Source of the DNA: Acidobacteriota bacterium
GTDB taxonomy: Bacteria > Acidobacteriota > Terriglobia > Terriglobales > Acidobacteriaceae
NCBI GenBank assembly: GCA_021810625.1
Contig: JAJZIJ010000010.1
Location: 1-64,000, forward strand
Length of the DNA stretch: 64,000 nt
Direction of reading: 5' to 3'
Below the pieces are notes generated by a model. It saw only the letters and a program-made list of their open reading frames with translations. It was not told where the DNA came from and ran no database searches. How positions within the stretch are numbered: position 1 is the first letter of the stretch; each line of letters begins with the position of its first letter. The position numbers and the translations under genes are program-made. Below are positions 39,739 through 42,300 of this stretch, in pieces.

Positions 39739-40191
39739 AGGAAGCTCTGAATGTAAGTCTTGACAGCTTGACACCAATAAAAGAGAAAATAAAATTAGAG
39801 AGGCGTGTTTCGCTCTCAATTGAGCCTGGAACGCGCTCGATATCCCACGCCAGCCGTTCCGCGTGAGCGCGTCCCTTGTTTGCTTGCTTTGCTGGATTCG
39901 GCATCTGTAAAAAGCCGGGGAACCACAAAAGGCTGTTCGTCTTGCGTTCCCCGCAGCTTGGCGCAAAAGTTTGCAACTTGGCGCAGTTTTTTGCGTCTTA
40001 ATAGTGGAGGTTTTTCAATGAAGAATCTGGCTGTACCCCTTTGGGGAAGGGTGTCCGGTCTTTTGTGTCCAGCATAATCAAGCGACGGGCGGGGTGCCTC
40101 TTTGTTTTGGGTTTGCGCCGAATCGCTGTTTCACCGCAGTTGATCCATGCCAGTGTATCGGTGGAACCGACTGCCAAACTTCAGGAGGACG
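39739..40191. other. Structured leader region before the radical SAM gene
   Basis: This 450-base stretch has no full gene. Near 39739-39756 is AAGGAAGCTCTG with AAGTC after it, matching the end of the 131-bp element. At 39891-39953 is GGATTCGGC...GCCGGGGAACCA with an 8-bp stem (CGGGGAAC / GTTCCCCG). This looks like half of a c-di-AMP (ydaO-type) riboswitch but lacks the second half (GGGGTGAAT). GCTTGGCGCA and ACTTGGCGCA form a direct repeat at about 39955-39985. A 19-codon ORF with a good ribosome-binding site follows (separate entry). Confidence 0.35.
40018..40077 (+). CDS. Putative 19-aa leader-type ORF
   Basis: ATG at 40018 follows GTGGAGG by 7 bp, a strong ribosome-binding site, and reads MKNLAVPLWGRVSGLLCPA before a TAA at 40075-40077. 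It sits after a structured leader and 114 bp before the radical SAM gene. It may be a leader peptide, the remnant of a broken gene, or chance. An overlapping frame (40041-40223) encodes a weak signal-peptide-like stretch, which would fit a frameshifted secreted protein. Only the start signal supports it. Confidence 0.3.
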   Translation: MKNLAVPLWGRVSGLLCPA

Positions 40192-42300
40192 ATGAAAATG
40201 TCGAAAGCCATAAAATATGCTGAAAAATTAGTGACTTTTGCTGCTCGTGGCAGTTGGGTGATCTTCGATAAGCTGAATAGCATCCGCCCAAATGCCTCCT
40301 TTACCCCCAAGTGGTCGGACAAGCCACTATTGAAGTCATATCAGAAGGAAAAGCCGCCACTCGGCTGGCCGCGCACAACCGACTCGCTGTGCCCAAAGTG
40401 CGTACCGGAGATACGCCGGCAGATTGTTGACGGCAAGGTGCCGCATGAGGTGCTGCTGAATGAGAAAGTGGGCGAGATCAAGGCACAGATCATCGAGCGC
40501 GATGGGAAAATCCTCATGGTGAAGGACTGCCCAAAGCATGGACATTTTGAAGATGTAATGTCCATTGATCCGGCATTCTTTAAGCATCTGGAAGAGGTTT
40601 TTCCTGGCCGTGACATTCGCGCCCACAATGACGAAAAGCTGCACAAACACGGCAGCTCAACCATCACGCATGGCCGTGGCTCGGTGCTGACCATTGACCT
40701 GACCAATCGCTGCAACATGATGTGTGACCCGTGTTTCATGGATGCCAACCAGGTTGGGTTTGTACATGAACTGACATGGGATGAGATCAAGACCCTGCTG
40801 GACAACGCGATCTCCATCAAGCCCAAGCGCCAGATGTCGGTGCAATTTTCTGGCGGTGAGCCAACGCTGTCGCCTTATTTTCTGGACGCGGTGGCCTACG
40901 CGCGCAAGCTGGGGTACGAATCCGTACAGGCGGCGACCAATGGCATTGAGTTTGCCAAGAGCAAGGAATTTTGTCGTGCCGCTGCAAAAGCCGGGTTGCG
41001 TTATGCCTACTTGCAGTTCGATGGCATCGGCAATGCCGCCAACTCGCATCGCAAAGTGGGCAACCTGTTCGATGTAAAACTTCAGGCCATTCACAATTTA
41101 CACGAGGCCGGAGTGGAAATCGCTCCAGTGACCACCATCATCAACGGCATCAACAATGAGCAGGTGGGCCGCATTATTCAGTTTGCGATCGACAATCCCA
41201 AGACCATTAACTTTCTGAGCTTTCAGCCCGTTTCTTTTACCGGGCGCGATGAGGCCATCACGGACGAACGCCGCACAGCGCAGCGCTACACGCTGAGCCA
41301 CATGGCGCACGATGTCAAAAATCAGACGGGCCTGGGCGAGCCAACACGCGACTGGTTCCCCATCAGCTTTATGAGCACCTTCTCGGATTGGGCGGATATG
41401 GTGCATGGCCCGAACCAGGATTGGGGCCATCTCGCCTGCGGGTGCCATCCCAATTGCGGCATCGGCATGGCCTTGATGATCGACAAGGAAACCAAGGAGG
41501 CCGTTCCGGTGACAGCCTTCGTCAATGCGGATCGGCTGGCCAAGGACGTGGCCAGGATCAACGATGCGGCGCGCGGAAAGTTTCTGTCAATTCTGGGCGT
41601 GGCGCTGGCATTGTTGCGCAACTACGATCCATTCAAAGCGCCAACACATTTTCGGATTAAAGACATGCTGGAGAAATTCGACAAGAGCTTTGAGGTGACA
41701 GGCCGTAATTACGGCTCTATCACGGGGAATCGCACGATGGAAGACATCCAGAAACGCCGCGCGGATCGTTGGAATTTCCTGTTCATCGCGGGCATGTGGT
41801 TCCAGGATTTATTCAATTACGATTTCCGCCGCACCGAGCAATGCATCATCCCATACGCGACACAAGAGGGGGAAATTTCCTTCTGCGCGTACAACACGGG
41901 CGTGGGCTGGCGCAACATTATTGAGAAGATGCACATGACGGCCACGCTGACCAAATGGTATGAGGAGCATGGGCGGCATGAAATCTTTGCCGGAGGGCAC
42001 AAGGTAAATCTGGGCGAGGTGAAACACTCGCTGACGTTGAACGAACAACACGTTCATGCTGCGGCGAATGACACTCTGGATAAGCTGGGCATTGCCAAGA
42101 ATGCGCGCCAGGAGAAGGTAATGGCGCGCGATGCCAAGGCGAAACAGGATGCAGAAAATGCGAGAATGGAACGGCTCTATCGGGAGCATATCCTGGGCGA
42201 GAAGTCACAGGGAGATTTTGTGGCCATCGACGCGCTACTCCAGTCTGCCTCAAAGGCGGAATTCGCGAGAGAAGTGGAAGAACCGGTGATGAGCGATTAG
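40192..42300 (+). CDS. Tes/Mss-type radical SAM enzyme (membrane-spanning lipid synthase family)
   Basis: The 702-aa protein has the layout of archaeal tetraether synthase Tes (MJ0619 family) and its bacterial relatives. An N-terminal cysteine cluster has SLCPKC (C67, C70) and KDCPKHGHF (C113). The radical SAM core has LTNRCNMMCDPCFMD (C174, C178, C181) and SGGEPT. Extra cluster sites are ACGCHPNCGIG (C416, C418, C422) and CIIPYATQEGEISFCAYN (C551, C565), the last matching the C-x2-YAT-x-G-x4-FC-YN signature of Tes. These enzymes join two lipid tails through a carbon-carbon bond. Here the likely product is a membrane-spanning diabolic-type acid. Start ATG 40192 follows AGGAGG. Function inferred from family. 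Confidence 0.78.
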   Translation: MKMSKAIKYAEKLVTFAARGSWVIFDKLNSIRPNASFTPKWSDKPLLKSYQKEKPPLGWPRTTDSLCPKCVPEIRRQIVDGKVPHEVLLNEKVGEIKAQIIERDGKILMVKDCPKHGHFEDVMSIDPAFFKHLEEVFPGRDIRAHNDEKLHKHGSSTITHGRGSVLTIDLTNRCNMMCDPCFMDANQVGFVHELTWDEIKTLLDNAISIKPKRQMSVQFSGGEPTLSPYFLDAVAYARKLGYESVQAATNGIEFAKSKEFCRAAAKAGLRYAYLQFDGIGNAANSHRKVGNLFDVKLQAIHNLHEAGVEIAPVTTIINGINNEQVGRIIQFAIDNPKTINFLSFQPVSFTGRDEAITDERRTAQRYTLSHMAHDVKNQTGLGEPTRDWFPISFMSTFSDWADMVHGPNQDWGHLACGCHPNCGIGMALMIDKETKEAVPVTAFVNADRLAKDVARINDAARGKFLSILGVALALLRNYDPFKAPTHFRIKDMLEKFDKSFEVTGRNYGSITGNRTMEDIQKRRADRWNFLFIAGMWFQDLFNYDFRRTEQCIIPYATQEGEISFCAYNTGVGWRNIIEKMHMTATLTKWYEEHGRHEIFAGGHKVNLGEVKHSLTLNEQHVHAAANDTLDKLGIAKNARQEKVMARDAKAKQDAENARMERLYREHILGEKSQGDFVAIDALLQSASKAEFAREVEEPVMSD

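Follow-up and report, generated by a model that had tools for sequence, protein, structure and literature searches.

The gene at 40192–42300 of the window (the whole 64 000-nucleotide stretch of acidobacterial DNA analysed here) encodes a member of the tetraether lipid synthase (Tes) family which most probably couples two iso-C15 phospholipid acyl tails into membrane-spanning iso-diabolic acid. As judged from alignment and tree, the protein belongs to a separate Acidobacteriota clade in which the N-terminal [4Fe-4S] motif of Tes has been lost and an invariant cysteine has been gained by the catalytic cluster. Acidobacterial Tes homologs were proposed in 2022 as makers of the precursors of branched tetraethers (brGDGTs; PMC8941075, also PMC10087280), and bacterial Tes homologs were still called unconfirmed in 2025 (PMC11868695); in the literature covered, the tail-joining enzyme of Acidobacteria is proposed and unconfirmed. 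That literature (main texts, for the most part outside subscription journals) gave no account of a division of the acidobacterial genes into two types, the loss of the N-terminal cluster or the exchange between types in family f2 described below. What is new is therefore the clade, its cofactor loss and the match between lipids and genomes; the role of acidobacterial Tes homologs had already been proposed.

Four groups of sequences are distinguished throughout: type A, the branch of the window protein (134 orthologs); type B, more distant (4 sequences); type T, classical Tes or Tes-proper (16 sequences from Acidobacteriota); and type D, TrsS-like (4 sequences).

Gene model and family assignment

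The open reading frame runs on the + strand from the ATG at 40192 to a stop codon whose last base is 42300, and on translation it coincides exactly with the 702-codon gene reported by the initial annotation. Two features define the gene model:

40192–42300, + strand: Tes-like radical SAM gene, 702 codons plus stop as first given, preferred start 40198 (ORF, Pfam, NCBIfam and PDB match)
40183–40188, + strand: ribosome-binding site AGGAGG, 9 nt ahead of the ATG at 40198 (sequence; this ATG is conserved in relatives, that at 40192 is not)

Translation probably starts at the ATG at 40198, giving 700 amino acids, because its Met is aligned with a Met in 120 of the 134 type A orthologs and the AGGAGG lies 9 nt from it and only 3 nt from the ATG at 40192; among relatives, the latter is present only in the same-genus copy. 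A chance ORF is excluded by the Tes HMM match (E = 3.8e-96), by orthologs that are 75–87% identical in 80 named records and by a dN/dS of 0.03–0.06. The gene is under strong constraint; MutY in the same loci is only 45–52% identical. The 450-bp gap upstream also holds a 19-codon ORF, MKNLAVPLWGRVSGLLCPA (40020–40079), with a purine-rich stretch before its start; conservation of its flank is limited to the same genus.

The protein contains the Pfam domains Radical_SAM and HMPTM zinc-ribbon, and its best NCBIfam model is Tes, tetraether lipid synthase (NF045702, 322.6 bits). Since this score lies below the cut-off of 450 bits, the profile places the protein as Tes-related yet not as a Tes equivalog; classical Tes genes of related Acidobacteria score 487–619 bits with the same model. 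The TrsS model (NF045646) gave 206.1 bits against a cut-off of 490, and the match was confined to residues 95–380. The best solved structure by far was MJ0619 (PDB 7TOL/7TOM, E = 4e-61). An AlphaFold model, built with an alignment of 57 window and locus proteins as input, reached a pLDDT of 88.3 and a pTM of 0.88. It was matched to 7TOM by Foldseek (E = 1.4e-34, TM 0.87 on the target) and by structural alignment (Z = 41.6, 476 of 498 residues, 2.5 Å, model range 59–596), with MoaA as runner-up (Z = 19.8) and end-to-end matches confined to Tes structures. The match of this predicted structure takes in the rubredoxin domain, the radical SAM domain and the domain of the C-terminal cluster, i.e. 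the full length of the Tes fold. Sequence and model therefore agree in assigning the window protein to the Tes/MJ0619 family as a full-length radical SAM member. The profile search and the overlay on Tes that had been suggested as checks thus gave one answer, with best profile, best solved structure and fold all being those of Tes; no other family scored better, and the residues of the C-terminal cluster match Tes one for one.

Cofactor sites and phylogeny

The ligand list of MJ0619 (PMC9433317) was transferred to an alignment comprising 134 type A, 4 type B, 16 type T and 4 type D rows; with four rows each, types B and D are thinly sampled. The following sites were located:

40390–40539, + strand: rubredoxin-type iron site C67, C70, C113, H116 (C9, C12, C33, H36 of MJ0619), from the alignment of 134 type A, 4 type B and 16 Tes-proper rows
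40636–40680, + strand: lost N-terminal [4Fe-4S] motif, where C73/C77/C80/H83 of MJ0619 correspond to K149/H153/S156/T159 (alignment)
40711–40734, + strand: radical SAM cluster motif CxxxCxxC (C174, C178, C181), invariant in all rows and aligned with C98/C102/C105 of MJ0619
41437–41460, + strand: CGCHPNCG, with C422 the first C-terminal cluster ligand and C416 and C418 extra (alignment)
41794–41796, + strand: M535, equivalent to Met439, the labile cluster ligand of MJ0619, invariant in type A, type B and Tes-proper rows
41842–41895, + strand: CIIPYATQEGEISFCAYN (residues 551–568), with cluster ligands C551 and C565 and Y555 (Tyr459 of MJ0619), invariant in type A, type B and Tes-proper rows

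The motifs picked out by the initial annotation (C67, C70 and C113; C174, C178 and C181; CGCHPNCG at 416–423; CIIPYATQEGEISFCAYN at 551–568) were all recovered residue for residue. Its view that they form a Tes-type combination holds for the rubredoxin, radical SAM and C-terminal cluster ligands, which align with those of Tes; it had overlooked that the N-terminal [4Fe-4S] motif is missing.

In the alignment, H116 joins the three N-terminal cysteines as fourth ligand of a rubredoxin-type CxxC...CxxH iron site; the cysteines are present in 134/134 type A rows and the histidine in 133/134. C70 and C113 are separated by 43 residues versus 21 in Tes, which corresponds to a 22-residue insert in the rubredoxin domain of type A. 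The N-terminal cluster motif, CPYDCGLCPNH in MJ0619, reads KLHKHGSSTIT in the window protein. Cysteine occurs at none of the three cluster positions in the 134 type A and 4 type B rows, whereas all three cysteines and the histidine are present in each of the 16 Tes-proper rows. The loop found in their place is invariant in type A at L150, H151, H153, G154, S156 and G161-R162-G163, a pattern of conservation rather than decay.

At the C-terminal cluster the three cysteines (C422, C551, C565), the labile methionine (M535) and the tyrosine near the substrate end (Y555) are all invariant. M535 and Y555 are supportive rather than decisive, since the M439A and Y459F variants of MJ0619 remain active (PMC9433317). 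The SAM-loop residues Q345, S348 and R352 are kept in type A, Q345 and R352 being invariant. C416 and C418, which precede the ligand C422 by six and four residues, are, like C422 itself, invariant in types A and B; C418 is also found in 12 of the 16 Tes-proper rows, where the position of C416 is mostly Leu, Ile or Val. It is possible that C416 and C418 take part in cluster binding.

With MJ0619 (Tes, GDGT-MAS; 7TOL, 7TOM) the window protein therefore shares its predicted whole fold, the rubredoxin site, the radical SAM cluster, the C-terminal cluster ligands with the labile methionine and the SAM loop. It differs in its overall sequence (30% identity), in the lack of N-terminal [4Fe-4S] ligands and in the presence of C416/C418, the longer rubredoxin insert and two terminal extensions:

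40195–40278, + strand: N-terminal helix, residues 2–29, with an amphipathic start, absent from MJ0619 (AlphaFold model; hydrophobic moment)
41980–42297, + strand: C-terminal extension, residues 597–702, with a long helix (638–666) and a disordered end, absent from MJ0619 (AlphaFold model)

The modelled N-terminal helix (pLDDT 83–97) has a hydrophobic moment of 0.59 at its start against a mean of 0.23 and may possibly contact the membrane. The tail beyond C565 measures 107–173 amino acids in type A and 21–72 in Tes-proper, and the C-terminal extension evolves faster than the core.

In a maximum-likelihood tree (49 rows, 553 columns), type A formed one fully supported clade. Types A and B, together with one fragment, share a branch of 1.7 changes per column, which adjoins the bacterial classical Tes sequences, although at such a length the root and attachment of A + B are unsure; type D lies apart. 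Within type A, the genes from family f2 cluster with those from families f24 and f34 and not with those of Acidobacteriaceae (family f1, see below), a placement that suggests transfer.

Type B is a second relative, 51–54% identical (L163 in G062; L159 in G024), which also lacks the N-terminal cluster cysteines; G062 carries an A gene as well as its B gene, whereas in G024, whose genome is incomplete, the related gene is split in two frames. Type A genes 81–83% identical to the window gene were also found on two contigs labelled Rhodanobacteraceae (Pseudomonadota; L048 and L062), which are probably mis-binned acidobacterial contigs rather than cases of transfer.

Distribution, gene neighbourhood and lipid composition

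The host genome, a 2.45-Mb draft MAG estimated as 99% complete, belongs to family f1, the Acidobacteriaceae (subdivision 1), which includes Edaphobacter, Granulicella and Acidicapsa. This naming of f1 follows from matches with identical coordinates, by which G253 corresponds to E. lichenicola M8UP30, G492 to G. aggregans M8UP14 and G443 to Acidicapsa dinghuensis. It contains one strong Tes-family gene, its remaining matches being generic radical SAM proteins (37–55 bits). Across the phylum, a match was obtained in 213 of 396 genomes, a count that pools types A, B and T with some weaker relatives. Of the 219 f1 genomes at least 95% complete, 211 carry a Tes-family gene at E 1e-50; a gene above the Tes cut-off, i.e. 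a classical Tes, is present in only 18. At the same threshold no Tes-family gene was found in the other eight (G018, G022, G457, G475, G501, G528, G580 and G585); if our explanation is true, these eight should lack iso-diabolic acid. Classical Tes occurs in none of the Edaphobacter genomes (genus g33) among those listed.

In family f2, five genomes have classical Tes only, four have type A only, none has both and one has neither. Where f1 genomes possess both, the classical Tes gene lies within ~12 kb of the type A gene and on the same strand in at least 8 of the 18 genomes with a classical Tes (G021, G103, G144, G279, G426, G529, G531 and G569). The exchange in f2 and the linkage in f1 may be read as signs of one pathway shared by type A and classical Tes.

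The two genes were seen near each other on one strand at four loci: L164 (G279), L165 (G021), L174 (G144) and L175 (G103). In G279 and G021, mutY and a peroxiredoxin-like gene lie further downstream of the pair, and in G279 and G015 a small lipoprotein-like ORF directly follows classical Tes. The G279 ortholog was considered as a dying gene on account of an internal TAA; this was rejected, as the HMM match shows no stop in the core and the ORF codes for 719 amino acids. A plasmid search for type A copies returned only distant radical SAM proteins (21–29% identity).

The initial annotation had also pointed to metK, 1.1 kb upstream, as supplier of the cofactor. The position is correct (metK ends 1.13 kb upstream), with an ogt-like gene intervening. 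Of 64 ortholog loci, however, just one has metK within reach, and on this ground metK was rejected as a functional partner. No conserved lipid operon surrounds type A, the commonest neighbours being a lipoprotein presumed from its sequence to be RlpA-like (21 of 74 loci) and MutY (9 of 74). The interval between metK and mutY gave no Rfam match at E 0.1, either to a SAM riboswitch or to another RNA.

The ether bonds of bacterial membrane-spanning lipids have been attributed to Ger/PlsA or ElbD (PMC13274423, PMC10087280). In the host, PF01869 is found in one protein of 347 amino acids, and an ElbD-sized protein is absent, as NAD_binding_4 matches only short SDR-like proteins. DUF2229 (PF09989), which we take to mark PlsA/Ger, had no match in the host genome; the Thermotoga maritima control was positive. 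Since neither Ger/PlsA nor ElbD was detected, the product in the host is predicted from its gene content to be ester-linked iso-diabolic acid rather than brGDGT, in a screen that covered Ger/PlsA and ElbD.

Iso-diabolic acid has been reported from subdivisions 1, 3, 4 and 6 (PMC13274423). A search with the Tes HMM of 12 named Acidobacteriaceae genomes detected one full-length type A gene in each and classical Tes in none; three have an additional weaker relative. One of the 12 is Edaphobacter modestus DSM 18101, which carries a single type A gene without any further Tes-family match at E ≤ 1e-25; iso-diabolic acid makes up 30.4% of its fatty acids, and 26.4% in E. aggregans DSM 19364 (PMC11354219, Table 1). 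E. aggregans also makes brGDGTs, and the one Tes homolog reported from it shares 32% identity with the Methanosarcina enzyme (PMC8941075), the value expected of type A. The window gene belongs to the group named as candidate for brGDGT synthesis by Zeng et al. 2022, in which the Koribacter (42%) and Solibacter (40%) homologs would by their identity fit classical Tes, another branch (PMC8941075). The proposal that this gene is the tail-joining enzyme of the organism gains support from the Edaphobacter match; the activity itself is inferred, and the score lies below the Tes cut-off.

Proposed reaction and its alternatives

The gene, its predicted fold, the conservation of ligands, the loss of a cluster motif, the distribution and the lipid–genome match were observed; from these we infer substrate, reaction and electron route. 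The reaction of MJ0619 takes two SAM-driven hydrogen abstractions and passes through an intermediate attached to a C-terminal cluster sulfur (PMC9433317); the cluster ligands needed for this chemistry are kept in the aligned window protein. By analogy with MJ0619, the CxxxCxxC cluster (C174, C178, C181) would cleave SAM, and the resulting 5'-deoxyadenosyl radical would abstract a hydrogen at the first chain's methyl end. That carbon would then be held by a sulfur in the C-terminal [4Fe-4S] cluster (C422, C551, C565 and the labile M535) until a second SAM cleavage activates the second chain, whose attack on the held carbon would form the C–C bond. At its end an iso-C15 tail is branched just as phytanyl is (PMC8941075), so that the same coupling reaction is plausible in type A. 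The enzyme would retain the rubredoxin-type iron and lack the surface N-terminal cluster. As that cluster lies on the surface of MJ0619, our guess is that electrons enter Tes through it; if so, type A would need another entry route.

Two other readings appear unlikely. The first is that type A acts on lipid tails without joining two lipids across the membrane, the same fold yielding an intra-lipid cross-link, a methyl branch or a ring. MJ0619 also forms a macrocycle within one lipid (PMC9433317), and type A is deeply diverged, with 30% identity to MJ0619, the long branch of 1.7 changes per column and a cofactor set and cysteine pattern that differ from Tes. However, the site that holds the intermediate at the C-terminal cluster is kept residue for residue, and type A is the sole Tes-family enzyme of E. 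modestus, a strain with 30% iso-diabolic acid; we therefore give this reading little weight.

The second, to which we attach a similarly low probability, is that iso-diabolic acid is made by a radical SAM protein of the Mss type and that type A catalyses some other radical reaction. Mss, from the work of Sahonero-Canavesi et al. 2022 (cited in PMC13274423), has the same proposed chemistry, tail-to-tail joining of acyl chains, and its models are reported to have Tes architecture. It is the experimentally shown bacterial synthase, bacterial Tes homologs being unconfirmed (PMC11868695, PMC13274423), and Mss matches have been reported in some Acidobacteria MAGs (PMC11868695). Since the Tes HMM is silent in T. 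maritima at E 1e-40, any Mss in that species is no close relative of Tes and would escape the present survey. Against this, the host has one strong Tes-family gene beside generic radical SAM proteins only, and type A is nearly universal in f1 and swaps with classical Tes in f2.

TrsS (seleno)proteins (NF045646) share zinc-ribbon-like N-terminal and radical SAM domains with the window protein. That type A is a radical SAM methylase of class D or of the TrsS kind, an annotation once given to the family and suggested by the 206-bit TrsS profile score and by the first annotation of MJ0619 as a pterin methylase (PMC9433317), is very improbable, since the TrsS match is partial (residues 95–380), type D is a separate clade mostly without the C-terminal cluster ligands and methionine kept in type A (in the four rows examined) and the pterin assignment was not corroborated by the structure paper of MJ0619 (PMC9433317).

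With the coupling of two iso-C15 tails as the preferred reading, a wider proposal, on which we are evenly divided, is that this acidobacterial lineage of the Tes superfamily, which would work with one [4Fe-4S] cluster less than archaeal Tes and with a modified C-terminal site (C416, C418), is the chief producer of ester-linked iso-diabolic acid among aerobic Acidobacteriaceae and is evolutionarily interchangeable with classical Tes. brGDGTs are a main thermometer for past land climate, and acidobacterial iso-diabolic acid is thought to be their building block. The present analysis tells classical Tes and type A apart as two types within the Acidobacteriota, of which E. modestus, with its 30% iso-diabolic acid, has type A only, and it raises the mechanistic question of how C–C coupling may proceed without the N-terminal cluster.
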